Positions 1,164-40,762 of a DNA stretch of 40,762 bases are shown here, piece after piece (positions within the stretch are counted from its first letter, which is position 1; each line of letters opens with the position of its first letter). Below the pieces are notes generated by a model. It had not been told where the DNA came from and did no database searches. It saw only the letters and a list, made by a program, of their open reading frames with translations. The position numbers and the translations under genes are program-made. The stretch comes from a virus: IMG/VR virus record IMGVR_UViG_3300031877_000318, positions 1-40,762 of that record, one strand, 5' to 3'.

Positions 1164-1457
1164 GATATCCTTTAGCCGGCGGCGATATTCCTCAATCTTC
1201 TTGTGAAGCTCCTCGACCCATTCGCGAAGAGATCCCAGGCATTCAGATTCTTCGTCGGGAACTGGCGAGGAAACGTCTCTTGAAAAAGGAGACTTTACGG
1301 ATCGCAGGAGAGCTTCTAGGATCTGACAGGAATTGTCAAGAGACGAAACATAGTTCAGATAAAAAAGGCAAGAATTAAGGCCCCCAGGATAGGGAAAAAA
1401 GAAAGCGCATTCGTCCTTTCTGCAGGGGCCGAAGTTGTTAAGGGGGCAGCCGGACAT
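1158..1457 (-). CDS. Antisense cysteine-motif protein (99 aa)
   Basis: The minus strand has an open frame beginning MSGCPLNNFGPCRKDECAFF, followed by a further Cys at NSCLFY and a helical, charged C-terminus ending WVEELHKKIEEYRRRLKDIS. The pattern CPLNNFxPCxxxxCAFF...C is one I associate with small conserved prophage proteins and could bind metal. The cysteine-rich N-terminus comes from 1379-1457, where the plus strand codes for nothing. The C-terminal part lies antisense to the 72-residue gene at 1160-1378. No clear ribosome binding site precedes the ATG at 1457. Both strands look protein-like here, which is unusual, so confidence is moderate. Confidence 0.45.
   Translation of the reverse strand: MSGCPLNNFGPCRKDECAFFFPYPGGLNSCLFYLNYVSSLDNSCQILEALLRSVKSPFSRDVSSPVPDEESECLGSLREWVEELHKKIEEYRRRLKDIS
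1160..1378 (+). CDS. Stand-alone protein resembling the transposase C-terminal segment (72 aa)
   Basis: The start at 1160 is supported by CGGAGG five bases upstream and by the ATGA overlap with the preceding gene. Residues 29-52 (IQILRRELARKRLLKKETLR and on) align without gaps to transposase residues about 606-630 (MEILKREMTRKRSLRRETIK and on), with 11 of 24 identical and most others conservative. In MuA the corresponding C-terminal alpha-helical domain III contacts MuB and ClpX and has non-specific DNA affinity. A small separate copy placed before the transposase could compete for these partners or for DNA; that role is inference. The DNA sequences differ mostly at third positions, so the likeness is kept at the protein level. 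An antisense gene overlaps the whole frame. Confidence 0.6.
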   Translation: MRYPLAGGDIPQSSCEAPRPIREEIPGIQILRRELARKRLLKKETLRIAGELLGSDRNCQETKHSSDKKGKN

Positions 1458-3855
1458 GAATGGAACCATAATACAAGGCGACGGAAAAAGTCAAGGGGAA
1501 GTTGATGTGGAGACGGCGGCGAGGATTTTAAAAAGGGCGCCATGCACAATTCGGCGGATGTTCAGGCGGGGGAAGATCGAGGGCCATTATATCTCATCGG
1601 AGAAAGGCGGGGGGATGGGTGGGAAGAAATTACTGATCAGGATATCGGGAGATCAGGAGAGCAGGGAATCAGGGGATCAGGGGATCGGGAAATCAGGGGA
1701 TCTCGTAGAGTCGAGTCTCCGACAGGAGATCAGGGAACCAGATAAAGAAGAAATCGAGAAAGGCAAGGGAGGAATGGAAGTCGTTGAGTCGTTGAGTCGT
1801 CGGGTTATTGGGTCGGAGACGGAGGGCCGGGAATTGCCTATCATTGGGCCTAAAATTGAAGTTATCAGCGAGAAAAATATGCGGGTTGGGAATTTGCGGG
1901 CCGATTTGCTGCGCCAGTTAGAGCTGAATTTAGCCGAGAATGGCCGGGATCGGACCGAAAAGATTCAACGGTTTCTTAATGCCTACAATTCCGGCCTTCT
2001 TTTGCCTGCCATTTTTTCCAAAATTGGGGAAATATCCCGGGCCACATTATATGAATGGATGGGCGCCATGAATCATGGCGGCATTCAAGCCTTAGCGCCG
2101 CGGTATGGAGCGGCAGAGTCCTGCCGGATCACAGAAGACGAAAAGAATATCCTCCTCTCGTTGGTCCTGAATCAAAACAAAATTAAGGTCGGCTCGGCGA
2201 TCCGGATGATGAAATATCTCTTAGAGAAAAGGAAGATCGATTCGCCCTCGAGCGATTCTACCCTACGCCGATGGGTGGAGGGATTCAAAAAAAATCATTT
2301 CGACAAATGGATTTTGTTCCGCGAGGGCGAGAAGGCCCTGAACGATCAAGTAACTCCATACATCGAGCGGGACCGCGAACTCTTGGAGGTGGGCGAGGGC
2401 CTGGTGGCCGATGGCCATCGGTTGAATTTCAACGCGATCAATCCCTTCACGGGCAAACCGTGCCGCCCCGCGATGATCCTCTTTTGGGATTGGCGGTCAT
2501 CATATCCTGTCGGTTGGGAGATCATGCTACAGGAGAATGTACAATGTATATCTTCGGCCCTCCGAATGGCCATTATTACCCTCGGCAAGATGCCCAAGTG
2601 GGTTCTAATCGACAACGGAAAAGCCTTCAAAGCCAAGGTTTTTAATTCCAAAATCGACCTCGAGGAGGCTGGGTTATTCGGAATGTATGCCCGGCTGGGC
2701 ATCCGGACGCATTTCGCCATGCCCTACAATGCCCAATCCAAGCCCGTGGAGCGGTTTTTCAGGACTTTTACGGATTGGTTTGAGCGGATGATTCCATCTT
2801 TCGTCGGCTCATCGATCGAGGATAAGCCGGCATATATGAAACGCAACGAGAAACTTATGCGGCGTATCCATAACGATTGGGTCCCGACCATCCCGGAGGC
2901 GATGGAGATGATGGCCAAATGGCGCGAATTTTACATCGATCAGCCATCACGGGGATTGAAAGGGAAGACACCCAGAGAAGTCTTTGGGTCATTGAGTCGT
3001 GGCGTCGTTGGGTCGGAGATTGACCTGGCCGATCTGCATTATTTAATGATGGCGATGGAAATCCGGACCATCCACCGCAACGGGGTCACATTCCTCGGGC
3101 GGCACTGGTATGACGATTCACTTTACGGCCTCCGAGATCGCGTTACCATACGGTACTCTTTTTCCGACCTGAGTCAGATCTACGTCTTTACGAGCAAGGG
3201 TGAATTTCTTGGTGCGGCCAGGCCCGTGACTCCCGTACATCCCATGATCTGCGAGGACGGGGATCCCCACGACATGGAAATTTTAAAACGCGAAATGACC
3301 AGGAAACGGTCTCTTAGGCGAGAGACCATCAAAGTCGCCAGGATGATTGGAGATAAGATCGACGCCGTCCTGCCCATGCGCGAGATCGTCGCGCAGATCC
3401 CAGATGTGGTGGGGGCTATTGAAAAGGCCCAGACGGAGATGCATCCGCCAGCGCTGAATCCGTCGCCCTTCCTCGAGGGCGAGGAAATGCAGGTCCCCTC
3501 ACCCCGGCCCTCTCCCGCAAGGGGCGAGGGAGGAATAAAGGAGTCCAGTTCCGCAAGGGGCGAGGGAGGAATAAAGGAGTCCAGTTCCGCAAGGGGCGAG
3601 GGAGAAATAGGTGAAGAAACCGGCTCGAGGTCGCCGCTTTCGGGGCCGTGGCAGCCGGATTCGCCGTCGAGACTCGAATGGTATGAAAGGCAGCATCCCG
3701 CAATGCTGACGGAAGCGGACAGATCATGGATTGAGGATTACAAAGTAACCCTCGAATACAACGCCATCTATGGTTCGCAGGATGGCCAAAGCCGGCTGGC
3801 GCACATCAGATCATTGAGACCTGAGAATTGCGGAGGGAGAGGAGGCAATACATGA
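1456..3855 (+). CDS. A: Mu-type DDE transposase (A protein)
   Basis: This is the strand-transfer enzyme for integration and replicative transposition of the phage. Start 1456 is preferred over the TTG at 1435 because AGGGGG lies nine bases upstream; the product has 799 residues. Residues about 15-63 form a helix-turn-helix/excisionase-like domain (EVDVETAARILKRAPCTIRR). The catalytic triad is visible as D319 (VADGHRLNF), D386 (LIDNGKAF) and E432 (KPVERFF). The D-D spacing of 67 equals that of MuA (269 to 336). A beta-barrel domain follows (about 520-585), then a basic helical segment (about 606-630) like MuA domain III. Repeat-derived, low-complexity stretches sit at about residues 64-95, 108-123 and 680-720, all in frame. 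The gene ends in an ATGA overlap with B. Confidence 0.95.
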   Translation: MNGTIIQGDGKSQGEVDVETAARILKRAPCTIRRMFRRGKIEGHYISSEKGGGMGGKKLLIRISGDQESRESGDQGIGKSGDLVESSLRQEIREPDKEEIEKGKGGMEVVESLSRRVIGSETEGRELPIIGPKIEVISEKNMRVGNLRADLLRQLELNLAENGRDRTEKIQRFLNAYNSGLLLPAIFSKIGEISRATLYEWMGAMNHGGIQALAPRYGAAESCRITEDEKNILLSLVLNQNKIKVGSAIRMMKYLLEKRKIDSPSSDSTLRRWVEGFKKNHFDKWILFREGEKALNDQVTPYIERDRELLEVGEGLVADGHRLNFNAINPFTGKPCRPAMILFWDWRSSYPVGWEIMLQENVQCISSALRMAIITLGKMPKWVLIDNGKAFKAKVFNSKIDLEEAGLFGMYARLGIRTHFAMPYNAQSKPVERFFRTFTDWFERMIPSFVGSSIEDKPAYMKRNEKLMRRIHNDWVPTIPEAMEMMAKWREFYIDQPSRGLKGKTPREVFGSLSRGVVGSEIDLADLHYLMMAMEIRTIHRNGVTFLGRHWYDDSLYGLRDRVTIRYSFSDLSQIYVFTSKGEFLGAARPVTPVHPMICEDGDPHDMEILKREMTRKRSLRRETIKVARMIGDKIDAVLPMREIVAQIPDVVGAIEKAQTEMHPPALNPSPFLEGEEMQVPSPRPSPARGEGGIKESSSARGEGGIKESSSARGEGEIGEETGSRSPLSGPWQPDSPSRLEWYERQHPAMLTEADRSWIEDYKVTLEYNAIYGSQDGQSRLAHIRSLRPENCGGRGGNT
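1634..1743 (+). repeat. GATCAGG repeat block 2, inside the transposase gene
   Basis: Degenerate units such as GGGAGATCAGG, GGGAATCAG and GGGGATCAG run through the 5' part of the transposase gene. They are read in frame as a Ser-Gly-Asp-Gln-rich linker after the helix-turn-helix domain. A 21-mer of another repeat family (1703-1723) interrupts the block. This looks like host-type repeat DNA tolerated in an interdomain linker. Confidence 0.85.
1703..1723 (-). repeat. 21-bp repeat GTCGGAGACTCG-family, inverted copy
   Basis: This is an exact reverse complement of the 21-mer present three times at 16,517-16,579 and once at 23,883-23,903. Here it is read in frame in the transposase linker. The unit is itself an imperfect palindrome centred on AGACTCGACTCT. 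Confidence 0.85.
1783..1825 (+). repeat. TTGAGTCGT..TTGGGTCGGAG repeat, copy 1
   Basis: GTTGAGTCGTTGAGTCGTCG followed by GGTTATTGGGTCGGAGA codes for a Val-Val-Glu-Ser-Leu-Ser-Arg stretch in the transposase. A related copy lies at 2987-3022 in the same gene. Confidence 0.7.
2987..3022 (+). repeat. TTGAGTCGT..TTGGGTCGGAG repeat, copy 2
   Basis: GGTCATTGAGTCGTGGCGTC followed by GTTGGGTCGGAGA matches the copy at 1783-1825 and is read as GSLSRGVVGSE in frame. It lies between the catalytic core and the beta-barrel of the transposase, a place where an insertion would be tolerated. Confidence 0.65.
3497..3612 (+). repeat. 36-bp tandem repeat with CTCTCCC..GGGGCGAGGG element
   Basis: A CTCACCCCGGCCCTCTCCCG element leads into two tandem copies of a 36-bp unit (GGCGAGGGAGGAATAAAGGA...) and a partial third. 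They are read in frame as two 12-residue ARGEGGIKESSS units plus a partial one near the transposase C-terminus. Because 36 is a multiple of three, copy number can change without breaking the gene. The leading element resembles an interspersed repeat found in many environmental bacterial genomes. Confidence 0.85.
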
Positions 3856-5681: not shown

Positions 5682-6046
5682 TCCGCGAGCATTATCATGA
5701 GCCGGATGGAGTGAATCGGCTTATGAATATACTTGATGTGACGTACAGGCACATCGTTGACGCGGCCCATCACATGGGCCTGGGGCCGCGCAAAAGGGAA
5801 CACAAACATCTTAAAAAATATTATCGGGACCCTGAACCGGTGCCCCTGGAAGCGCTAAAAAGGGGGATTTGCCCGGGAAAAGGGAACGGACCATGCGGTA
5901 AGAGATTATGGCAGGAGCCCGTATTTTCGGCCAAGGGGTATAGCATGCCGGGATTATGCGATCTGGTTTGTGAGGCGGGGCACAGGTTTGCGTTGCCACA
6001 AGCAGAAGGAAAAGACAAAAGGCAAATAGCAGAAGGCGGAAGGTGA
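5642..6046 (+). CDS. HTH plus zinc-ribbon-like early protein
   Basis: I choose the GTG at 5642, behind GGAAAG, giving 134 residues; an upstream TTG at 5597 would lie wholly inside the zinc-finger gene. The N-terminal half (RHRFTEEERDLIREHYHEPD, then a helix pair around LDVTYRHIVDAAHHMGL) looks like a helix-turn-helix of Myb/SANT type. The C-terminal half has cysteines spaced like a zinc ribbon (GICPGKGNGPCGKRL and GLCDLVCEAGHRF). It sits in the early operon; a regulatory or host-takeover role is possible but not shown. Confidence 0.6.
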   Translation: MARHRFTEEERDLIREHYHEPDGVNRLMNILDVTYRHIVDAAHHMGLGPRKREHKHLKKYYRDPEPVPLEALKRGICPGKGNGPCGKRLWQEPVFSAKGYSMPGLCDLVCEAGHRFALPQAEGKDKRQIAEGGR

Positions 6047-6252
6047 TGGCGGATACGATTTGTGCGAAGAAATTAACGGAAGAAAGAGGACTAGAATCGT
6101 TTTGCAGGTGCTATCAATGTACCGGGGATTTAGGAGGTCTTTTCAAAAAGAAAGGAGACAAAGATGTGGTGGAAATTGATCACTATAGCGACCCTGGGAG
6201 TGAGCGCGATATTGCTGATCATCTCACTTCGGCAGGCAGCCAGGGAACGTGA
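6046..6252 (+). CDS. Small cysteine-containing hypothetical protein (68 aa)
   Basis: The ATG at 6046 shares its A with the preceding TGA and lies behind GGAAGG. The N-terminal half contains a cysteine cluster, FCRCYQCTGDLGG (residues about 20-32). From 6164 on, the frame overlaps a second small gene coding for a membrane protein, and the C-terminal half of this product looks less natural. The true gene could be shorter or this could be a frame of modest importance. Function is unknown. Confidence 0.4.
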   Translation: MADTICAKKLTEERGLESFCRCYQCTGDLGGLFKKKGDKDVVEIDHYSDPGSERDIADHLTSAGSQGT

Positions 6253-6286
6253 GGAAGTCTGGAAGAAAATCGGCGGGACCGATTAA
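6164..6286 (+). CDS. Single-span membrane micro-protein (40 aa)
   Basis: AAAGGAG lies six bases before the ATG at 6164. The product, MWWKLITIATLGVSAILLII then a charged tail ending EVWKKIGGTD, has one clear transmembrane helix (residues 4-22). It overlaps the 3' part of the preceding gene in a different frame and ends three bases before the next start. The hydropathy pattern and ribosome binding site make this frame more convincing than the one it overlaps. Function is unknown. Confidence 0.55.
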   Translation: MWWKLITIATLGVSAILLIISLRQAAREREEVWKKIGGTD

Positions 6287-6289
6287 AAG

Positions 6290-6784
6290 ATGAATATTAG
6301 ATGCCCCGCTTGCGGTGAATCTTTTAAACTTGAGGATTATTTGAAAGATCAGGCCCTTGTCCAGGCGATAAAGATGTTGCCGGAATTCGGGCAGCACGGT
6401 CGATTGATTTTTGAATATTGCGAGCTCTTCCGGGTCGGGTCTCCCCTCAAGAGCAGGAAGTTGCTGCGGCTGCTCCAGGAGATCCTGGAGATGTGGAAGG
6501 CGCGAAGATTTTCCTACCATAAGAGGACTTACGAAATCAGCCAGGAGGGGCTTCTCCAGGCCATGCACACGGTCTGCAATCAGCAGATGAGGACACCTTT
6601 AAGCAATCATAATTATCTTAAAAAAGTAGCCCTCGGTATTGCCGAGGAAGAATCGAAAGAGAGGAGCAAAGAAGATGAAAGGAAGTTCAGGGAAAGAGAA
6701 TCCGTTGCAAAGGTGGGAGATCGGATGGAAGCAGTTGCAGACATCCCGGGAAAAGTCCGGGAGTTGCTGGACAAGATTGGCTGA
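6290..6784 (+). CDS. Zinc-ribbon early protein (164 aa)
   Basis: The product opens with MNIRCPACGESFKLEDYLKD, a CxxC zinc half-ribbon, and continues as an alpha-helical protein with a lysine- and glutamate-rich C-terminus (about 120-164). No second CxxC is present; single Cys residues at about 44 and 96 might contribute. The family is not recognised. It is preceded by the membrane micro-protein at three bases and its last 110 nt overlap a further small frame. Confidence 0.55.
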   Translation: MNIRCPACGESFKLEDYLKDQALVQAIKMLPEFGQHGRLIFEYCELFRVGSPLKSRKLLRLLQEILEMWKARRFSYHKRTYEISQEGLLQAMHTVCNQQMRTPLSNHNYLKKVALGIAEEESKERSKEDERKFRERESVAKVGDRMEAVADIPGKVRELLDKIG

Positions 6785-6878
6785 AGCCCTAAGCGCGTTA
6801 TTTAGCAGGAAGCCCAGAATCTATGAGTTGACGCCATTTCAGCGGCTGCTGGCGCTATCGATTAGAAGGGTCAAATAA
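6675..6878 (+). CDS. Small basic hypothetical protein (67 aa), overlapping frame
   Basis: GAGGAG lies eight bases before the ATG at 6675. The first half overlaps the C-terminus of the preceding gene; the second half (LAEALSALFSRKPRIYELTP and on to SIRRVK) lies in otherwise non-coding DNA and reads like a natural helical protein. Function is unknown. The long overlap lowers confidence, but nothing else explains 6785-6878. Confidence 0.4.
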   Translation: MKGSSGKENPLQRWEIGWKQLQTSREKSGSCWTRLAEALSALFSRKPRIYELTPFQRLLALSIRRVK

Positions 6879-6892
6879 GATGGCCGAGGAAA

Positions 6893-7264
6893 ATGATTGA
6901 TATCCAGCTGACAGATCTGGAAAAAAATTTGATAGAGCTGCTCGGAGGCAGGCGAGGAGCGGCGAATGCCATTTCTCGGTTGGATCTTGTGGGATTACTC
7001 GATGGCTTTTGCGAGCGGAAGATCCGGCGCGCGATCAAACATTTGATGATGGAGCACGGAATCCCGATCGCGTCCGGGCCGTCGGGATATTATACGCCGG
7101 TTACGGAAGAGGAAGTCCAGCGGGCCTGCAAATATTATCACTCCTATGCAATGGCATCATTGACGGCGGAATCCAGATTGCGAAAATGCTCGCTGTGGGA
7201 GATCGTGGAGCAGTTGAGGATGGAATTTGGCAGACAGAGCACCATAAAGGATGGGGAGGTATGA
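6893..7264 (+). CDS. Winged-helix regulator-like protein (123 aa)
   Basis: GAGGA precedes the ATG at 6893. Residues about 1-70 form a winged-helix pattern: a first helix (DLEKNLIELLGG), a recognition-like helix (CERKIRRAIKHLMMEHG) and a wing ending GPSGYYTPVTEEEV. The rest is helical. Small proteins with this layout are common in early operons of Mu-like phages, but I cannot give it a named function. It overlaps the next gene in ATGA. Confidence 0.6.
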   Translation: MIDIQLTDLEKNLIELLGGRRGAANAISRLDLVGLLDGFCERKIRRAIKHLMMEHGIPIASGPSGYYTPVTEEEVQRACKYYHSYAMASLTAESRLRKCSLWEIVEQLRMEFGRQSTIKDGEV

Positions 7265-7482
7265 AAGCGATAAAGATAGGAAAATTGGCAAGAAAAATGT
7301 TTAAGGAAGGAGGATTAACCTGCCCGGATTGTGGCTCGCATGATTTTTTAAGGGGACCCAGGGGCGGATTATCCATAAATGTAAAATGCGCGAATTGCGG
7401 ATCAAAATATAATATATGTCCGCCTTGGTTTGCGGAGAGAATCGATAGGAGGGCAATAAATGGCTACAATGAGGGAGATTGA
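7261..7482 (+). CDS. Small zinc-ribbon phage protein (73 aa)
   Basis: The ATG at 7261 lies behind GGGGAGG and overlaps the previous stop. The product has a full zinc ribbon: LTCPDCGSHDFLRGP, then SINVKCANCGSKYN, followed by PPWFAERI. This CPxCGS...GPxGG...NVxCxxCG pattern is typical of small phage proteins with no assigned function. Its 3' end overlaps the start of gam by 23 nt. An upstream in-frame reading from 7009 lies antiparallel to no gene but within the winged-helix gene and is not needed. Confidence 0.65.
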   Translation: MKAIKIGKLARKMFKEGGLTCPDCGSHDFLRGPRGGLSINVKCANCGSKYNICPPWFAERIDRRAINGYNEGD

Positions 7483-7984
7483 GGGGAAGGCGGGGGATCT
7501 GGCCAGGGTGCGCGATATTTTGAAAGACCGGGTCAATGAGCTGGAATTTTTACTCTCGACTATGAAGAAAAAAGAACTGCCCGGGATCCGCAGGGCGGCG
7601 GAGAGCGCGGCCAAGGTCCAAGGCAAGCTGCGAGACATGATTGGCGAGAGTGCGGACTTATTTCAAAAGCCCAAGACGCAGATTTTTCACGGGATAAGAC
7701 TTGGGTATCAGAAAGCCAAAGGAAAGATAATCTGGGAAAATGACGAACAGGTCATCAAGTTGATCAAAAAGCATTTCCCAGATCAGCTGGACGTGCTGAT
7801 CAAAGTCGAGGAATATCCGCTTAAATCAGCGCTGGCGCAGCTTCCGGCAGCGGACCTGAAAAAGATCGGGGTCACCGTGGAAGATACGAATGATGAGATC
7901 ATCATCAAGCCCACGGATTCCGAGATCGACAAGATCGTGAATGCAATTCTGAAGGAAGATGAGTCTTATAAAACGGGCATGTGA
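7460..7984 (+). CDS. gam: Gam-like host-nuclease inhibitor
   Basis: The 174-residue product follows GGAGG at a good distance. Its first half is a coiled coil (DLARVRDILKDRVNELEFLL); the second half has the Gam signature QIFHGIRLGYQKAKGKIIW, DEQVIKLIKKHFPD, LPAADLKKIGVTVED and a final IKP. Mu Gam binds double-stranded DNA ends, is related to eukaryotic Ku, and shields linear phage DNA from RecBCD-type exonucleases. It lies near the end of the early operon as in Mu. Confidence 0.9.
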   Translation: MATMREIEGKAGDLARVRDILKDRVNELEFLLSTMKKKELPGIRRAAESAAKVQGKLRDMIGESADLFQKPKTQIFHGIRLGYQKAKGKIIWENDEQVIKLIKKHFPDQLDVLIKVEEYPLKSALAQLPAADLKKIGVTVEDTNDEIIIKPTDSEIDKIVNAILKEDESYKTGM

Positions 7985-8174
7985 TAGTTGCCAGTGGCGG
8001 CTTGTTAAGGCGAGTGCCATGCTGAGATGTATTGATCGCAGACAGGTGATGCGTTGCTCGAATTACTGCGGACCTTTCCCGGAGGATCATATATCGCTGC
8101 CTCATGGAGCGCCCTATTCCGACAGTTTATCGCGCGAGAGAGGCCGAAAATTGTCTAAGAGAGAAAAATCATGA
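7959..8174 (+). CDS. Cysteine-rich small protein (71 aa)
   Basis: AGGAAG directly precedes the ATG at 7959, inside the 3' end of gam. The product begins MSLIKRACDSCQWRLVKASA and has further cysteines at LRCIDRR and RCSNYCGPF, a four- to five-cysteine pattern suited to one zinc site. Function is unknown. It ends in an ATGA overlap with the next frame. Confidence 0.5.
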   Translation: MSLIKRACDSCQWRLVKASAMLRCIDRRQVMRCSNYCGPFPEDHISLPHGAPYSDSLSRERGRKLSKREKS

Positions 8175-16294: not shown

Positions 16295-17761
16295 ATGCCA
16301 TACGCGAAAAAGGAGGAATTGCCCGACGCGGTGAAGGCCCTTCCGGAACATGCGCAGGAAATCTGGATGGCGGCTTTTAATTCCGCTTGGGAGCAATATA
16401 AGGGCGACGAGGAAAGGTGTTTCGCCGTGGCCTGGGCGGCCGTGAAAAATAAATACAAAAAGGAAGGAGAAAATTGGAAGCAATATAAGGGCGACTGGGT
16501 GCCCCTTGAACACGGCGTCGGAGACTCGACTCTACGAGTCGGAGACTCGACTCTACGAGTCGGAGACTCGACTCTACGAGAAGGCCTTGAGGGCTGGGTC
16601 GAGATCTTCCGCACCGGCGAACATACGGATTCCGCGGGCAATATAAAAAAATGGACCGAAGAAGATCTTGATCAGATCACGGCTCGATACAATCCGGCCG
16701 AACACGAGGCGCCGGTTGTCATCGGGCATCCCGTGGGAAACGCCCCGGCATTCGGCTGGGTGGAGGCCGTGAGGCGGGAAGGACAATTCCTCTACGCTAA
16801 ATTCAAAAACCTCGTTCCCGAATTTGTGGATATGGTGAAAAAGGGATTATTTAAAAAGCGATCGATGTCCGTATACCAAGACGGAACGCTGCGGCATATC
16901 GGCTTTCTGGGTGCGATGCCTCCGGCTGTTAAGGGATTGGCGGACATAAAATTTGAAGCCGAGAAAAAGGCGATCACGATTGAATTTGAGCAGAAGAGAT
17001 GCCGACACCTGAATGAGGACGACACGTTTAAGGGAGGGTTTGATGGCTGCGTGGAGCACATGATGAGCTGCGAGGGCCTGAGGGAGGAGAATGCCAGAAG
17101 GCTTTGCGCATATATCGGAAGGAAGGCGGGAAAGATCGAGTCCGCAGAATCAAAGCAAAAAGGAGGTATGAAGATGAATTTCAAGGAATGGTTAAAAGGA
17201 ATCTTCACGAAGGCAGTCGATGCCATGCCGGATGGAGACTTGCAACCTCCGGCTCCGCAGACTTTCAGCGAGGCTGAAGTGAGAGCGCGGGAGGCCGAGG
17301 CGGTTAAAAGAGCCAAAGAAGAGAAAGACCGGGAATTCGCCGAGCAGAAAAAGAGAGAGGCCAAGGAGCGAAGGGCGGGGGAGGTTAAATCCTTCTGTGA
17401 GATGTTGCTCAAAGAGGGAAAGATCATCCCGGCATGGATGAAATCGGGACTACAGGAATTCCTGACCTCTTTGGATGGAGAAGAGTCGTTGGAATTCGAC
17501 GAGAAAAAAGAGAAGGCCTCACGGCTTGAATGGATGAAGAATTTTCTTTCCAAATTGCCAGAAGTCGTGAACTTCAGGGAGATAGCCAAGAGGGATGAAG
17601 CTTTCTCTGGGAATGCCGGAGAAAAGCTGAATCAACTTGTCCGGGAGAAGATGGAGAAGAAAAAGGATCTCTCATACAATCAGGCCTTCTCTGAGGTCCA
17701 GATTGAAAATCCCGACCTGGCCAGGGAATACCAGGAGGAAATCAGGCCGACTAAGAAATAA
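16295..17761 (+). CDS. ChaB-like domain fused to Mu I-type head protease and scaffold
   Basis: The 488-residue product starts three bases after the previous gene. Residues 1-58 are a ChaB-like domain (MPYAKKEELPDAVKALPEHA, QEIWMAAFNSAWEQY). Residues 75-95 are three identical VGDSTLR units coded by a tandem 21-bp DNA repeat. Residues about 98-235 resemble the Mu gpI maturation protease (APVVIGHPVGNAPAFGWVEA, LFKKRSMSVYQDGTLRHIGF). Then comes a Cys/His-containing link (GFDGCVEHMMSCEG, RRLCAYIGRKAGKI) and a charged scaffold region (294-488). The protease would remove the scaffold during capsid maturation. A second start inside the gene gives the scaffold alone. Confidence 0.85.
   Translation: MPYAKKEELPDAVKALPEHAQEIWMAAFNSAWEQYKGDEERCFAVAWAAVKNKYKKEGENWKQYKGDWVPLEHGVGDSTLRVGDSTLRVGDSTLREGLEGWVEIFRTGEHTDSAGNIKKWTEEDLDQITARYNPAEHEAPVVIGHPVGNAPAFGWVEAVRREGQFLYAKFKNLVPEFVDMVKKGLFKKRSMSVYQDGTLRHIGFLGAMPPAVKGLADIKFEAEKKAITIEFEQKRCRHLNEDDTFKGGFDGCVEHMMSCEGLREENARRLCAYIGRKAGKIESAESKQKGGMKMNFKEWLKGIFTKAVDAMPDGDLQPPAPQTFSEAEVRAREAEAVKRAKEEKDREFAEQKKREAKERRAGEVKSFCEMLLKEGKIIPAWMKSGLQEFLTSLDGEESLEFDEKKEKASRLEWMKNFLSKLPEVVNFREIAKRDEAFSGNAGEKLNQLVREKMEKKKDLSYNQAFSEVQIENPDLAREYQEEIRPTKK
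16517..16579 (+). repeat. Three perfect tandem copies of the 21-bp GTCGGAGACTCG repeat, in frame
   Basis: Copies at 16,517-16,537, 16,538-16,558 and 16,559-16,579 are identical and are translated as VGDSTLR three times, between the ChaB-like and protease domains. Identity at every base shows recent duplication. Other copies are at 1703-1723 (inverted) and 23,883-23,903. Confidence 0.95.
17174..17761 (+). CDS. Nested scaffold protein (Mu Z-like) from an internal start
   Basis: Within the protease gene, AAAGGAGGT (17,159-17,167) lies seven bases before an in-frame ATG at 17,174. This would give a 195-residue protein, MNFKEWLKGIFTKAVDAMPD and on, made of a highly charged helical region (ARAREAEAVKRAKEEKDREF-like) typical of scaffolds. 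In Mu and in many phages the scaffold is produced in just this way from the 3' part of the protease gene. The very strong internal ribosome binding site is the direct evidence. Confidence 0.7.
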   Translation: MNFKEWLKGIFTKAVDAMPDGDLQPPAPQTFSEAEVRAREAEAVKRAKEEKDREFAEQKKREAKERRAGEVKSFCEMLLKEGKIIPAWMKSGLQEFLTSLDGEESLEFDEKKEKASRLEWMKNFLSKLPEVVNFREIAKRDEAFSGNAGEKLNQLVREKMEKKKDLSYNQAFSEVQIENPDLAREYQEEIRPTKK

Positions 17762-23441: not shown

Positions 23442-23882
23442 ATGGCTTACACCATCATTCAGGTCGAAGATAAATTAGTGGCCGTCATGAAGGCGGATGC
23501 TGGCCTTTCGGCGGCTTGCAAGACTATCGATTCTTTTAGTGGCGAGGCGGCGGACTTGGTGGATCAAATTGAACAGATGACTGCGCTTCTCCCCGCAGTC
23601 TGGGCGGTTTTTGGCGGATCGATTTTTACCGAATCCGCTAATCGATCTTTCGACGATGAAATGAGATTTATCATACTGGTGGCGGCCCAAAATCTTAGGT
23701 CCAGAGCCGCGGCCGCGCATGGGGTATATGAGATTTTGGAGTTGCTTAAGGGTCTTCTTACAAATAATAATCTGGGATTTAATATCGAGCCGCTGCATCC
23801 GATCTCGATCGATCCGATTGCCGTTACCAATCGCCTGGCAATTTATGGGGTTACCTTCAAAACACTTTTTTCGCTCGATTAA
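23442..23882 (+). CDS. DUF1834 / Mu gp37-like tail terminator-type protein
   Basis: The ATG at 23,442 lies one base after the previous stop; the product has 146 residues. It has the gp37 pattern: MAYTIIQVEDKLVAVMKADA, LPAVWAVFGGSIF, an interior VAAQNLRSRAAAAHGVYEIL and the C-terminal NRLAIYGVTFKTLFSLD. The family is thought to serve at the head-tail or tail completion step. Order gp36-gp37 is conserved with Mu-like phages. Confidence 0.8.
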   Translation: MAYTIIQVEDKLVAVMKADAGLSAACKTIDSFSGEAADLVDQIEQMTALLPAVWAVFGGSIFTESANRSFDDEMRFIILVAAQNLRSRAAAAHGVYEILELLKGLLTNNNLGFNIEPLHPISIDPIAVTNRLAIYGVTFKTLFSLD

Positions 23883-23903
23883 GTCGGAGACTCGACTCTA
23901 CGA
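23883..23903 (+). repeat. 21-bp GTCGGAGACTCG repeat, single copy at a gene start
   Basis: An exact copy of the 21-mer sits directly after the stop of the gp37-like gene. Its last bases join to give CGAGGAGG, the ribosome binding site of the gene at 23,914. The same 21-mer is tripled inside the protease gene. Confidence 0.95.
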
Positions 23904-23913
23904 GGAGGGCAAA

Positions 23914-24093
23914 ATGTATCGCTTAAAACCAAACGTGCCGGATTTCACGGTGGTTGATGGTAAATTCGCCGGGCGGACTTTTCGCGCGGGCGAACTTTAT
24001 GCGGAGGTGCCGCCAGAAGAGATCCGCCGCTTCGAAAAGGATCCCGAAGAGGCCGAGAAGCGAGAGAAAGGCAAGAAGGAGGATAAATCATGA
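23914..24093 (+). CDS. Small protein at the Mu gp38 position (59 aa)
   Basis: GAGGAGG lies six bases before the ATG and partly belongs to the 21-bp repeat. The product (MYRLKPNVPDFTVVDGKFAG, then FRAGELYAEVPPEEIRRFEK) has an N-terminal beta part and a highly charged tail. Mu gp38/DUF2635 proteins are of this size and place, between gp37 and the tail tube or sheath gene, but sequence likeness is only general. It overlaps the tail tube gene in ATGA. Confidence 0.55.
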   Translation: MYRLKPNVPDFTVVDGKFAGRTFRAGELYAEVPPEEIRRFEKDPEEAEKREKGKKEDKS

Positions 24094-25355
24094 AAAATTA
24101 TCTGGCCGATTATAACTTGCTGGCCGTCTCGGCGAACCTCAAAGAGACCGCCATCAATACGGAGCAGACGCTGGATACCTCCATGCTGGTGGATAAGGGA
24201 GATATTCTTCTTCTCGATCCACGCCGGGAGGATAACCGCGATGAGCTGACCGGGAAAGAGGAACCTGACACGGTCTACGACTTAGGCGCCCTGGCTGGCG
24301 GGACTATGAATTTCAACAAAACCCAGGCACAACATTTCGGGTTTGGCTTGGCCTTTGGTCTAGGAATCGATGCATCCTCAGCCTGGGGGACTGGATACAA
24401 GCACGTAATCACGCCAACGTCAAACATGTCGATCCCTTCTTTTACCGCGGCTATGCGATTGGGATTGACCATTTTCAAAAGGCGGTTTGCCTCTATGCAT
24501 ATCGACACGCTCACCGTGACCTTCGCCAAGGACTCATGGGCCAAGTTGGTTCTGGTCCTAAAAGGGACTGGCAAAAAAACAGACAATATGTATCAGGAGA
24601 ATGTAACCGCCGCCTATAACGCCACGCAGCTCACCCTGGCTGCGAATGGAGTTCAGGGATCGACTGCGGCAGAGCGGCTCGATAATGTCCATCTGGTCCG
24701 GGTCCAGGTGCCCACGACAAGTGAGTGGAAGGATGTTGTTGTGACTGCGGTTTCTGGGGCTACTCCTGCGGTTCTGACGATTGAAGCCCCTGGGGGATCT
24801 TTGGATCAAGTTACTTACCGCATCCTTTATGTGCCCATAGAATCGGGATGGATGTCTTTCCCCTCGAGAGTTTCTGAACCGCCTTTGCGCGTAACGGATC
24901 TGGTCCTGAAAGTTGGCGGGAAATGGAATGGGTCAACATTTTTGGGCGGCCATACGATGGCAGCCGAGATCGATTCCATCGAATACGCGCTCAATAATCA
25001 GATGCTGGTGGACTTCCGGCCCGGTGGTACAGGGGCGTATGCCAATTTCGCGTTGCGCCAGGGACGAATCCAGACGATAAGATTAAACCGCCAGGCGCGG
25101 GATTTCATCATGCAGCAAAGGATTCTGGACAATGAGTATTTCGGGGTCTACATGAAGGCCACGGGCGCCGAATTTGAAACCGGGAAAAATTATTACGTGG
25201 AGATCGTCTTCCCGCGCTGCAATGTGCTCAAAGCTCCTCTCTCAGTGGGCGGGAAAATCCTGGCCGAGGCCGGAGATTTGACCGTATTGCAGGATGATAC
25301 TTATGGCTCTGTGAGGGCTGAGGTGGCGAATAAAGTCGCGGCGTATGCAGGATAA
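24090..25355 (+). CDS. Major tail tube protein of a siphovirus-type tail
   Basis: The 421-residue product starts in an ATGA overlap. Features are the N-terminal LKETAINTEQTLDTSMLVDK, the GLAFGLGIDASSAWGTGYKH segment, and an insertion of Ig-like type (about 190-260) coding for VRVQVPTTSEWKDVVVTAVS. The C-terminal part (GKNYYVEIVFPRCNVLKAPL, VLQDDTYGSVRAEV) resembles the closing strands of tail tube proteins. No sheath gene is present, so the tail is non-contractile. It forms the hollow tube assembled around the tape measure. Confidence 0.75.
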   Translation: MKNYLADYNLLAVSANLKETAINTEQTLDTSMLVDKGDILLLDPRREDNRDELTGKEEPDTVYDLGALAGGTMNFNKTQAQHFGFGLAFGLGIDASSAWGTGYKHVITPTSNMSIPSFTAAMRLGLTIFKRRFASMHIDTLTVTFAKDSWAKLVLVLKGTGKKTDNMYQENVTAAYNATQLTLAANGVQGSTAAERLDNVHLVRVQVPTTSEWKDVVVTAVSGATPAVLTIEAPGGSLDQVTYRILYVPIESGWMSFPSRVSEPPLRVTDLVLKVGGKWNGSTFLGGHTMAAEIDSIEYALNNQMLVDFRPGGTGAYANFALRQGRIQTIRLNRQARDFIMQQRILDNEYFGVYMKATGAEFETGKNYYVEIVFPRCNVLKAPLSVGGKILAEAGDLTVLQDDTYGSVRAEVANKVAAYAG

Positions 25356-25356
25356 T

Positions 25357-25420
25357 CGGGAAATCAGGAGATCAGGGGATCAGGACATCAGGAGATCAGG
25401 GAATCAGGAAAGCAGAAAGG
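25357..25420 (+). repeat. GATCAGG repeat block 3
   Basis: About six degenerate GGAGATCAG/GGGATCAG units fill the gap after the tail tube gene. The block ends in AGAAAGGCGAGAAATGA, supplying the ribosome binding site and start codon of the chaperone gene at 25,427. This matches the tail of block 1 at 15 of 17 bases. Confidence 0.9.
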
Positions 25421-25426
25421 CGAGAA

Positions 25427-25900
25427 ATGAAGGAATATCAAATTGGCGAGAAGACCTTTATTCAAAAGCCCCTTGTCCTGGGGCAATTGATGCAGATCAT
25501 TGACTTGCTGGCAGGATTGCAAATCCCTTCCCATATTACGATCCCTGGCATCATTGCCCTCTTGCAGGATCGTCTACCTCGAGCAATGGCCATCATCCTA
25601 TGCGAGCCAGGACAAAAACTAAAGGAAAAGGATCTGGATTCTTTGACGGATTTCATGGCCGGAAAATGCGATCTTTCGACCACTCTGGAGGTAGTGGAAA
25701 ATTTTTTCGGTCTGAACAATTTGCCCTCCATCTTAGAGAAATTGGCTCAGATGAGCCAGACGGTCAAACGGCTAGTCATTGGATTGAAGAGCTCTGCGTT
25801 ATCCTCTGCGGAGGAGATATCACACGACGAGACGAAATCCTCTGGGGATACACCTTCAGAGAATGCGAGCCCTATTTTAAACACCGAGAACGTGATGTAA
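25427..25900 (+). CDS. Tail assembly chaperone, short form (G-like)
   Basis: The 157-residue product (MKEYQIGEKTFIQKPLVLGQ and on) is helical with a low-complexity Ser/Glu-rich C-terminus. It sits between tail tube and tape measure genes, the fixed place of the G/GT chaperone pair of siphophages. The chaperone coats the tape measure before tube assembly. Six codons before its stop is an in-frame T TTA AAC slippery heptamer leading to a longer -1 product. The start and ribosome binding site come from the tail of the GATCAGG repeat block. Confidence 0.8.
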   Translation: MKEYQIGEKTFIQKPLVLGQLMQIIDLLAGLQIPSHITIPGIIALLQDRLPRAMAIILCEPGQKLKEKDLDSLTDFMAGKCDLSTTLEVVENFFGLNNLPSILEKLAQMSQTVKRLVIGLKSSALSSAEEISHDETKSSGDTPSENASPILNTENVM

Positions 25901-32600: not shown

Positions 32601-35600
32601 CGCTTATCGGTCCGGCTTTTAGGCCTCCGGCAGTGCGAAATCTCCAGCTCAAAGATCAGGGCAATGAACAGATTTTTCTGGGCAATGACGCCCAATTTAC
32701 TTGGACCTGGTCAGATATCCAAAAAGATATCGACTATTTCTCTCATTTCCGGGTGCAGATTCTAATAGATGGGGAGGTCAAGCGCAAAGAGGTAACCAAA
32801 GACAAATCCTACAATTATACCCTGGCCAAAAATGCTCAGGATAATGGGAAACCACACCCTTCTTTCACGATTAAAGTTTCGGCCATCTCAAAGGGGATGG
32901 AATCTGACACAGCCAGCCTGAGCGTGTCCAATGCTCTTCCTCCAACGCCAGTTAACTTGACGGCTGTCGGCGGTTTCCGTTCAGTGGTTTTTGCCTGGGA
33001 AAAATCCCTTCAACCTGATCATCGGGATTGGCTCATCCGGACCAAGGTAGGCGCGGCCAACTGGTCCTCCTGGAAAGCCATCGCAGAAAACTCCTATCAG
33101 CGCAACCTGACCCAACCTGAAATTGATTCTTATGGTATTTCTGCAGGAATCCAGATTGAAGTCAAGGAAAGAGATAATTTCTTCCAATCCTCATCCACGG
33201 CGGCCAACGCCAGTTCCTCTGCCGAGGCGATTAGGCAGATCGATCTGACTGGGAGCGCTTTCCAAATTGTTCCTACTGATTCTGATGGAAATCCTATCAG
33301 CACCTTGAAGGTGTTGTATGATGCCGTTCTTTCCTCTGGTGGCGTGGCTTATGATGGTTCTGTTACCGAGGATTGGATTCAGTATGAGTTCCCGGTTTCG
33401 CACATTTTCAATCAAGTTCTCATCTGGGCGTCTGCATCGATGAATTGTTATGTGGCCTATTCGGAGAATGGTTCGACGTGGAACTATCTAAAAGGGGAGA
33501 CTGACCACACCCTCGACGCTAACGGAAAGCTTTTAGAAGCAGCCAACCAGGCTGATGCCCAAACGAATTATTGGACCACTGGCGCATCTGGATTGGTTAA
33601 AGCGCTTTGGCCTTACATGCGCCAAGGCCGGTATTTGCGCCTATATATCAAGTCGGCGGTCACCCTTTACGAACTTAAATGGTGGACTTATGTGATCGCT
33701 GATGAGATCGATGCTGGCGTCCTTCATTTGGCCAGGGGAATAAGCATTGCCTCTGTGGAAGACAGCCAGAATGCTGTGATAATTAACACGAACGGCCTGC
33801 GCGCGTATAGCGGCGGCGTTCAGAAGGTGAATATCTCTCCCACTGGCATTACCATTTCGGCTGGTTCTGGATATGCCAACCTCTCAGATAAACCCACCCA
33901 ATTAAGTAATATCAACGCATCAGAGGGAATGAAATTAAGTGGGATTGAATCGGGTGCTGATGTTACTGGGACTCACCAAGCTGCTTCAATCGCAGGTCAA
34001 GGTGCTCTTGCTACACAAAGTAGTGCCGATTTCGCCACTCAAGTTTCGGGTGCCCAAAAACCAGAAAACAATGCCACTGTTGGGGCAAATTGGAGTACCA
34101 ACCTGACAAACAGACCCACTGAATTGACTGACGGTAGAGTAGCAACGGCCCTTCATGCTGACGGTTATCTCAAAAGCAAAGTTCTTCCTGGATCAAACAT
34201 TGGGACGCCGGGGGGAGCTGGGCTATTCTTGGGCGCTGATTGTTTGGGATATTATTCGGGTTCGGAATGGAAAGTTTTCATCAAGAGTGACGCGACTTTC
34301 ACGCTCAAGGGTGATGCTAATAATCTTGTTTCTTGGGATGGCGTGACTCTAACTATCAAGGGCGCTATTGTGATCCAGAGTGGATTAGGTTATGGAAATC
34401 TTTCTGATAAACCGACTCAGTTGAGTCAGATAAATACTTCTGAGGGAACAAAGTTGAGCGGAATTGAAGCTGGCGCGGATGTTACCTCCACTCACACTGC
34501 TGCTGCAATTTCCGGTCAGGGAGCTTTGGCCACACTCAATGCTGCTGATTTTGCTACGCAAGTCTCAGGTGCTCAGAAACCCGAAAACAATGCCACTGTT
34601 GGGGCAAATTGGAGTACCAACCTTACAAATAGACCTACTGAACTGACTGATGGGAGGGTGAGTGCGGGATTGAGTTCCTCCGGATATTTGGTTAGTTGCG
34701 CTGATCCGGCGGTTCCTGCTCCCGTGGCTGGTGGGGCGGGTCTGTACCTTGGAAGCGATTATCTTGGGTACTATTCTGGATCAGCGTGGAATGCCTACAT
34801 CAAAAGCGACGGAACCTTCAAGTTCTATGGCGCTGCGGACAAGTATATCGAATGGACTGGGGCCGCCCTGAATATTCGCGGCGCTCTGACTGCTGATGAC
34901 ATAGTGGCAGGGATTTTGACTGGTAGGCACATTAGAACTGCCTCTTCTGGTGCTCGCGCTGAGATGTTTCCAAATGCCAATACGGGCTTAGTGATCTATG
35001 ATGATGCTGCTGCTGAAGTTTTAAAAGTATTGGTTGGAGGAACTGATGTTGGGGATGTGATCATTGGAAATTACTCTGGTGGAAAGGGGCTGAAGTGGGA
35101 CAAATCTGCCGCAGCTTTCTCAATCGGAAAAAGTAGCCAACTTCTCGGGGCTGAGGCTTATGTAAATAGCAATATTTATTTCCACTCTTTCTTTGAGTCC
35201 CTTGATGGTTGGGGAGTTAGTGTAATTGGAACTGGAAGTGTAACACATCAGACCACATTTGTTCGATTGCAGGGAGTAACAACGAACGATGCTGCCTTTA
35301 TGCGTTTCCATCGAATCGGCTTGATTAGAACAACATCGTGGGGAAGTAATAGGAAATTCAAAACAAAAATTAGGATGGATGCGGTGGCAAGTCAGAGGGC
35401 CTATGTTATTTCGGGTTATTGCACTTATTCAAACCCTACACCTGGGCATTTTGGCTTTTACATTAACGGATCGACTATATATGGAAGCTGTGCGAATGGT
35501 TCGGCACAGAGCACAGTAGATTTAGGTACGTCTATTTCCGGCAATTGGCAACTTTTGGAGGCAATCTTTACACCTGGTAACAATGTCGAATTTTTTATTG

Positions 35601-38389: not shown

Positions 38390-38477
38390 TGGTGCCTGGG
38401 ACCGGAATCGAACCGGTACGGTGCTGAGCACCAAGGGATTTTAAGTCCCTTGCGTCTACCAATTCCGCCACCCAGGC
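38390..38477 (-). tRNA. tRNA-Leu (UAA)
   Basis: On the minus strand a full cloverleaf begins GCCTGGGTGGCGGAATTGGT and ends with the acceptor CCCAGGC, discriminator A and an encoded CCA (38,390-38,392). The anticodon loop CTTAAAA gives UAA. A long variable arm (GGTGCTCAGCACC) marks a class II leucine tRNA. The T arm GGTTCGATTCC is standard. This is host DNA and marks the right side of the prophage. Confidence 0.95.
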
Positions 38478-39467: not shown

Positions 39468-40460
39468 TTATTTAGGAGGCGGGGTCTTTTCGGGCGGGGG
39501 AGGAAGCTTTTCTACCTTCACTTTTGAAATCCTTTGCCCTATCATTTCCACAACACTAATTCGCTTCTCTTCTATAACTACGGTCTCGCCAACTTGCGGA
39601 ATCTTCTGCAATACCGTCATCAGGAATCCTCCAAGGGTTTCATATTCCGGCGATTCCGGAAATTGCAGATTAAAGTCTTCCCTTAGATCCCTCAGACTGA
39701 CGGAGGCATCGATCTGCATGGTCCCGTCAGCAAGTTTCACTACTGGATTTTCAACATCATATTCATCGCGAATCTCTCCAACGATTTCTTCTAATAGATC
39801 CTCGATGGTCACCAGACCCGAAATTCCTCCATATTCATCTACCGCCAAAGCCATATGGCTTCTCTTCCTTTGCATTTCTCTTAATAAGAGACTGATTTTC
39901 ATGGTCTCGGGGATGGAAAAGGGGGCCTTAATCATTTTACGGATATCGACATCCCCCGTTCTTGCAAGATTCGTGAGGAACTCTTTGGCATGAAGCACCC
40001 CCCGAATATCATTCAGCCCTTTTCCAAAAACCGGGTAACGCGAGAATTGCTCCACTTCAATGAGTGCCATGATATCTTTTGGGGTCTGATCGATCTGAAT
40101 TGCTACCATCCCGGTGGCTGGCACCATGACCTCTTTGACTGACATGTCTGTGAATTCAAAAATGCTTTGGAGGATTTTTTCTTCCGTCGGCTCGAATACG
40201 CCATGCTTTCCCCCTTCTTTGATCAGCAACTTCACCTCTTCCTCAGTGACGTATGCCCGTTCGGTAAAAGGTTTTCTCCCCGAAGGGCTGAGCACAATGG
40301 CCGTACTGAAGGTAAGGATTTTGACAAAAATGTTGGAAACTTTTGAAAAAATATCTATCGACCTTGCTGTGCGCAGGCCTATGGCTTCAGGATGGGCCAA
40401 GGCGATCGACTTCGGCACCAATTCTCCGAAAATCAAAGAAAAATACGTAATAATGACCAC
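39468..40460 (-). CDS. CorC/HlyC-type transporter-associated protein, C-terminal part (frameshifted gene)
   Basis: This 330-residue frame, read from a GTG at 40,460, holds the end of a CNNM/DUF21 membrane domain (ITYFSLIFGELVPKSIALAH). Two CBS repeats follow (MVPATGMVAIQIDQTPKDIM and HMALAVDEYGGISGLVTIED), then the CorC_HlyC domain (LRDLREDFNLQFPESPEYET). The family is linked to divalent cation, mainly magnesium, homeostasis. The missing N-terminus is found in the next frame just upstream (40,469-40,762), so one gene has been split by a single-base shift near 40,461-40,470. It could be a true mutation or an assembly error. Confidence 0.85.
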   Translation of the reverse strand: MVIITYFSLIFGELVPKSIALAHPEAIGLRTARSIDIFSKVSNIFVKILTFSTAIVLSPSGRKPFTERAYVTEEEVKLLIKEGGKHGVFEPTEEKILQSIFEFTDMSVKEVMVPATGMVAIQIDQTPKDIMALIEVEQFSRYPVFGKGLNDIRGVLHAKEFLTNLARTGDVDIRKMIKAPFSIPETMKISLLLREMQRKRSHMALAVDEYGGISGLVTIEDLLEEIVGEIRDEYDVENPVVKLADGTMQIDASVSLRDLREDFNLQFPESPEYETLGGFLMTVLQKIPQVGETVVIEEKRISVVEMIGQRISKVKVEKLPPPPEKTPPPK

Positions 40461-40468
40461 GACGATTC

Positions 40469-40762
40469 CTACTTGATGGGGACTTTTTGTAGGATTGGTT
40501 TAATAACTTCGATTGCCGCTGCCCCTCCAATCGCCGAGGCGAGGACTCCTACAATCGTAATGCCAATCTGGATGGTGGCCAGAAATCGGTCCGGTTCTTC
40601 CTTGAGTTTCAAAAATATTTTCGCATTCTTTTTTCCGGCTTCCGCCAACTGTTTGATATGGCTTTTCCGAGCCGTTACCACCGCAATCTCTGTTCCAGAT
40701 AAATAACCATTCACGAGAATGAGAATAAAGATCAAAAATATGTCAATAAAAAGGTCATCCAT
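40469..40762 (-). CDS. CorC/HlyC-type protein, N-terminal part (frameshifted gene)
   Basis: From the ATG at the window edge (40,762) the frame codes for 97 residues, MDDLFIDIFLIFILILVNGY, then LSGTEIAVVTARKSHIKQLA and LATIQIGITIVGVLASAIGG, the start of a DUF21/CNNM membrane domain. It stops at TAG directly before GGAATCGTCG. Removing the one-base shift would read on as VGIVVVIITYFSLIFGEL in the downstream part, giving about 430 residues, the usual family length. Confidence 0.8.
   Translation of the reverse strand: MDDLFIDIFLIFILILVNGYLSGTEIAVVTARKSHIKQLAEAGKKNAKIFLKLKEEPDRFLATIQIGITIVGVLASAIGGAAAIEVIKPILQKVPIK

Follow-up and report, generated by a model that had tools for sequence, protein, structure and literature searches.

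A 21-bp palindromic repeat of bacteria, probably mobile, is carried in five copies by a Mu-like phage

Introduction

What kind of sequence can stand three times, head to tail, inside a phage protease gene, a fourth time inverted within the transposase gene of the same phage and a fifth time between genes, with every copy identical? The DNA in question (hereafter the window, a virus record analysed over its full 40,762 bases) comes from a Mu-like phage with a Mu-type portal, a Mu-transpos_C transposase, a TniB-like ATPase and a terminase. An initial annotation had read the repeated 21-mer, GTCGGAGACTCGACTCTACGA, as a tiny mobile or slipped-copy element that had spread recently and that phage genes tolerate in linkers. 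The locus bears on a broader problem, as mobile palindromes are thought to be mostly extragenic and the spread of REPs is unsolved.

Results

The window contains five exact copies of the 21-mer, a head-to-tail triple and two singles (Table 1), and the initial annotation had placed all five correctly: the triple in the protease gene, the inverted copy in the transposase gene and the copy directly before the gene at 23,914. The first 12 bases of the unit occur 5 times in the whole virus record, and a backwards-read control occurs 0 times. The triple encodes VGDSTLR three times, in frame, in an ORF whose product takes the name head maturation protease from one related phage record. In this ORF, a ChaB domain (16319-16480) is fused at the N-terminus ahead of the head protease-like part, and the ChaB part is also aligned in several related phages. 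The inverted copy reads in frame as GDL-VESSLR-QEIREP and interrupts an array of 8-bp GATCAGGG-type repeats (GATC / element / AGGAGATC). The remaining copy starts right after a TAA codon (23880-23882), upstream of the ribosome site and the ATG at 23914; at the same place in the related phage L206, GGGAGG directly follows the TAA with no element between. With insertions at three separate places in 41 kb, the phage is densely occupied relative to bacterial genome G001, which has 17 copies in 2.1 Mb.

Table 1. Positions of the 21-bp element, its carrier genes and the bacterial flank in the window
Feature	Position	Strand	Basis
Carrier gene: Mu/TniA-like transposase (Mu-transpos_C)	1435..3855	+	ORF, domain match
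21-bp element, inverted, in frame in the Mu-like transposase gene	1703..1723	-	exact match
Carrier gene: ChaB domain, then head maturation protease-like part	16295..17761	+	ORF, domain match, relatives
21-bp element, first of head-to-tail triple, VGDSTLR	16517..16537	+	exact match
21-bp element, second of triple	16538..16558	+	exact match
21-bp element, third of triple, then target-like GAAG	16559..16579	+	exact match
21-bp element, single, intergenic	23883..23903	+	exact match
CNNM/CorC gene, bacterial flank at right end of window	39468..40762	-	used for host placement

The window has other repeats. Degenerate arrays of the 8-bp GATCAGGG-type repeat lie at 840-968, 1627-1761 and 25338-25450, one of them split by the 21-bp element. 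Three tandem 36-bp repeats (3515-3622) encode an ARGEGGIKESS-type peptide at the transposase C-terminus, and a 62-bp stretch with GTCGTTGAGTCGTTG-like units occurs twice in the transposase gene (1758-1819 and 2958-3019, 76% identity). The largest ORF (2075 aa) contains a 279-bp direct repeat (33862-34140 and 34381-34659, 76%). Comparison of the window with Rfam returned a tRNA as the sole match; a tRNA gene lies on the minus strand at 38393-38477, between the phage genes and the bacterial flank.

The insert measures exactly 21 bp, a 20-bp near-palindrome, TCGNAGACTCGACTCTNCGA, followed by one G. Positions 2-21 pair with one another with the sole exception of position 5 against position 18, and the earlier description of an imperfect palindrome is borne out by this single unpaired position pair. 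The same two positions, opposed in the hairpin, are free to vary while the others are nearly fixed (94 of 131 mismatches among the 116 copies that differ from the 21-mer at no more than 2 positions). Because they vary equally within and outside genes, this variation does not reflect codon choice. By analogy with E. coli REPs, in which a bulge is read by the mobilising enzyme (PMC8266576, in the portion available), the 5/18 mismatch suggests, without proving, a structural feature that a mobilising enzyme would recognise. As single-stranded DNA, the common G..A variant folded no better than shuffles (z of -0.35 and 0.06), and the T..A variant folded only slightly better (z of -1.5 and -1.15).

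The unit is almost invariant across genera, and the exact identity of copies therefore cannot date them. The initial annotation had taken identity as a sign of recent spread, but identity alone dates nothing; the case for recent insertion rests instead on empty sites in relatives.

Such empty sites are present in orthologous bacterial genes, some of whose filled copies came from an exact-pattern search. Among 18 genomes compared, G004 and G001 have the unit at the first uvrC site (CTT|GATG) and the other 16 are empty there; at the second uvrC site, only G004 has it. At the mutS site, compared in the 16 of these 18 genomes with a match, the unit is present in G001, G006 and G141 and missing from the other 13. 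Filled and empty versions of uvrC and mutS always differ by 21 nt, with alignable flanks and no target duplication. Five further sets of filled and empty loci were found (L108/L014, L111/L150, L124/L008, L139/L149 and L157, and L158/L115). Compared with proteins of solved structure, GcvH has exactly 7 residues more than three homologues across the matching span; the MutS and SecA inserts stand opposite gaps of 8 and 7, respectively, in the aligned structures. The exact 21-bp filled/empty orthologue pairs prove insertion.

In a two-protein tree, G001 groups with G006 and G141, and G004 groups with G146; the first uvrC site is empty in G006, G141 and G146, and its two carriers bear different variants (G versus T at position 5). 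Because the carriers are not sisters and their nearest relatives are empty, the same uvrC nucleotide was struck at least two times independently, unless the unit was precisely lost many times. The mutS copy of G141 has two additional substitutions. Copies also interrupt older repeats in the window and in loci L106 and L147. Apparent 7-bp direct repeats at L106 and L147 were considered as target duplications and rejected, as they are pre-existing arrays.

These data bear on the proposal that replication slippage or gene conversion produced the copies without any mobility. The protease triple, identical and head to tail, is what such a process would leave, and slippage is a possible origin for the triple. 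As an account of dispersal it is refuted by unrelated flanks at 89 independent sites (defined below) and by the exact empty sites of orthologues, making it very improbable as a general explanation. Consequently, the mobile half of the initial reading is upheld by the filled/empty pairs, while its slipped-copy half may explain the triple but not the three separate sites. Nor is the element confined to linkers, as had been supposed, since copies lie in conserved MutS, SecA, GcvH and UvrC. The suggestion that a length of seven codons keeps the frame did hold, with 21-bp inserts found in conserved protein genes.

We characterized the target by collecting copies at up to 3 mismatches (175 entries, with most of the extra rows being the same copies on the opposite strand), keeping the 103 within 1 mismatch of a degenerate consensus and thinning orthologues to 89 independent sites. 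On the 3′ side, the first base is G at 89 of 89 sites, followed by A (87%), A or T (79%) and G (79%), and the complete GAWG motif is present at 48 of the 89. The signal on the 5′ side is weak (C 48%, A 60%, the last place almost never C). Read on the bottom strand, both unit ends are preceded by C; the 5′ boundary is C^T, and the 3′ boundary is C^A or C^T in 64 of 89 cases. A palindromic target (CAT-G-ATG) was also considered and dropped, its flanks being without covariation. Guide-like covariation between element variants and target was not significant after correction (best of 29 tests, p=0.0035).

A site-specific recombinase of the tyrosine, serine or IS110-like kind, inserting a 21-bp cassette at a short core, would produce the fixed length and junction and could reuse the same uvrC nucleotide. 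Against it, target information is mostly one-sided and the flank arms do not covary, and we consider it improbable.

The element is largely intragenic. When ORFs were taken as the longest stop-to-stop frames with no gene caller, 64 of the 103 copies fell well within ORFs of 150 aa or longer; another 21 were close to an ORF end, and the remaining 18 occurred in short ORFs only. At the 54 independent inside sites, the V[GVAE]DSTLR frame is used 36 times versus 18.6 expected from GAWG phases, and the SETRLY frame once versus 12.1 expected, where the expectations derive from 380 ORFs of loci selected because they contain the element or a Y1 gene. Target phase accounts for part of this bias and protein selection probably for the remainder. 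The predominance of one frame could also be taken to mean that VGDSTLR is an ancient protein feature under amino-acid selection. However, copies occupy all six frames, some lie outside long ORFs, relatives are without the insert and positions 5 and 18 vary alike in and out of genes. The empty orthologues refute an ancient peptide, which is left with next to no probability.

A scan of genome contigs located the exact 21-mer on 29 contigs of 10 genomes titled Thermodesulfovibrionales, Nitrospirae, Nitrospinota, Syntrophaceae and Deltaproteobacteria. The carriers are groundwater and sediment bacteria, together with a virus infecting such bacteria. These 10 genomes, which were selected for carrying the element, hold 81 copies at up to 2 mismatches (2 to 17 each; control 0). 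When 1 mismatch was tolerated and positions 5 and 18 were left free, 14 of 176 genomes of the Thermodesulfovibrionales order had the unit, at up to 18 copies; this is the order of G006, and G004, titled Nitrospinota, falls within it. With no mismatch tolerated, the same pattern is present in 8 of 395 genomes across the phylum of G002. The reversed control pattern had 0 matches in the 10 carrier genomes and in the scans of the G006 and G002 orders, which argues against a sequencing adapter or an assembly artefact in metagenome bins. Such an artefact would fit the metagenome-assembled origin of the named carriers, but the copies come from several projects, and orthologous insertions fit the tree and decay with descent, as in the mutS gene of G141; we regard it as exceedingly improbable.

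Two arrangements of units were also observed in bacterial loci. In L009, L125, L126 and L063 (G003), the element is central in larger inverted repeats that resemble GTAG-type REPs, for example TAGGGGCGATTC..GAATCGCCCCTA in L009. In L028, two 21-bp units lie 4 bp apart in the same gene (approximately 3262-3307).

We placed the host by using the CNNM/CorC gene in the bacterial flank. This gene is 71-77% identical in 15 of 17 genomes of G002's order and at most 66% identical across the 176 genomes of the Thermodesulfovibrionales order, and a host in the latter was rejected. Given the higher identity in G002's order, which also has the repeat, the phage's host most likely lies in or near that order, as judged from this one flanking gene. 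The host species itself had no match among the 17 genomes or the 176. An in-frame TAG at 40469-40471 splits the flanking gene, reflecting either a nonsense mutation or a sequencing error.

Against its own reading, the initial annotation had set one pattern: a 21-mer absent from host genomes and an insert fixed in related phages. Both parts turned out otherwise. In the order that probably includes the host, 12 of 17 genomes have dispersed copies of the unit when positions 5 and 18 are left free and 1 mismatch is allowed. We compared 85 viral loci, comprising 80 portal relatives (one of which, L035, is also a protease relative), 4 further protease relatives and L197; 75 of the 85 match the protease, and the triple is absent in all 17 whose alignment spans the insertion point. 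The repeat is bacterial, and the phage carries it without being its only home.

Judged on the protease, the closest relatives are L198 and L199, with 67% identity across the N-terminal part. Among the viral loci, the element occurs within 3 mismatches only in L197, a member of the same phage group that was retrieved by the degenerate element pattern itself, and there it is located between genes. L197 was also the one match to the degenerate pattern among viral contigs; the exact unit had no match in that search, which the window's own record possibly lies outside, and a two-unit query had none among known phages. Within the L197 portal gene (5827-8109), a peptide is duplicated in frame (FSERNDRRW.IDDRRKKK.RPSSLIPHPSS), a further insert in this related phage that resembles a dispersed repeat.

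Two origins of the protease triple are possible, repeated hits on a retained GAAG target or slippage of a single insert. As the target stays directly 3′ of the insert, repeated hits would yield head-to-tail arrays, and the triple would need no slippage.

Discussion

Single units insert exactly and without duplication beside a short, one-sided G-A-W-G target, mostly within genes. We conclude, with a probability of about 0.8, that bacteria harbour the 21-mer as a non-autonomous mobile DNA repeat and that this Mu-like phage carries it too.

How the unit moves can be proposed more tentatively, at somewhat less than even odds. We infer that it would travel in single-stranded, folded form and be attached to the 3′ side of CWTC in the bottom strand, through an HUH/Y1-type enzyme (IS200/IS605- or REP-type) acting in trans. 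The C^T and C^A boundaries of the bottom strand speak for this route; the weak folding, the missing association with Y1 genes described below, the lack of guide covariation and the presence of the full GAWG motif at only 48 of 89 sites speak against it. Protein-level selection would afterwards retain mainly those insertions reading V[GVAE]DSTLR. IS200/IS605 elements, mobilised by HUH Y1 enzymes, insert 3′ of a short one-strand target without duplication and are recognised through hairpins. The 21-mer shares with them the one-sided target motif and the lack of target duplication; it differs in encoding no enzyme and having no separate left and right ends, and no guide covariation was found.

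A related explanation invokes a conventional REP element that depends for its movement on a RAYT (TnpA-REP) retained by these genomes. TnpA-REP enzymes cleave at CT, and one also at CA (PMC8266576, portion available), and the C^T/C^A boundaries, the hairpin of REP size (20 bp), the lack of target duplication, the long Y1 genes of many carriers and the existence of intragenic REPs (PMC3733652, in part) all agree with it. Yet none of 40 fetched Y1-transposase loci had the element nearby, and the presence of Y1 genes does not follow that of the element: two carriers, with 9 and 3 copies, have none, while three non-carriers have 2 to 5. The GTAG lies within the stem and is lost at 27 of 89 sites, where position 18 is not A. 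Moreover, single units move here, whereas REP singlets are probably immobile and the mobile unit of P. fluorescens is an inverted pair, according to the available part of PMC3116915. Mobilisation by a resident RAYT is accordingly unlikely, though deserving of attention.

A broader version of the preferred reading, in which the 21-mer by itself makes up the whole mobile unit, an undescribed, non-RAYT enzyme moves it in trans and Mu-like phages shuttle it between Desulfobacterota and Nitrospirota, is speculative, at less than even odds. If true, its length and lack of target duplication would make it a frame-safe insertion element able to enter core genes. The element offers a route for seven-residue insertions in mutS, uvrC, secA and gcvH without loss of frame, with phages as carriers. 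The direction of single 21-bp changes can be read from a tree, close relatives have empty sites and one uvrC nucleotide was apparently struck twice, which renders the target rule and the enzyme testable.

A literature search for the DNA and the peptide, covering sources available in part, returned nothing relevant; its one 12-mer match was in an HIV paper. The available part of PMC12306157 names Thermodesulfovibrio yellowstonii in a genome table.

Among known systems, the GTAG REP/RAYT REPtrons (Di Nocera 2013, PMC3733652, in the part available) share the dispersed palindrome of 20-40 bp, sometimes intragenic and found in repair genes as well; intragenic GTAG/CGTC repeats occur in several species, many in repair genes, although most REPs are intergenic. 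GTAG REPs have an unpaired, terminal GTAG, are associated with RAYTs and are mainly extragenic, in contrast to the stem-embedded GTAG, absent from 27 of 89 sites, the absence of Y1 association and the mostly intragenic sites found here. The 21-mer was also seen at no more than 18 copies per genome, and its single array is head to tail. By these described features it is set apart from the 24 GTAG families of the same source, as far as the available part describes them, and is not a member.

Rickettsia palindromic elements (PMC2229807, in part) are likewise selfish palindromes that sit in frame within conserved protein genes. They are 105-146 bp long and were described in Rickettsia genes, whereas the present element is 21 bp long, occurs in other phyla and combines a short target motif with demonstrated empty sites. 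REPINs (PMC3116915, in part) share the character of miniature, mobile palindromic DNA, but their mobile unit is the inverted pair, while filled and empty sites here differ by single units. MITEs produce a target site duplication, and none is present at the 21-mer sites. The closest kind is therefore REP/RPE, and what is new here is a single 21-bp palindrome that is mobile, largely intragenic and carried by phages.
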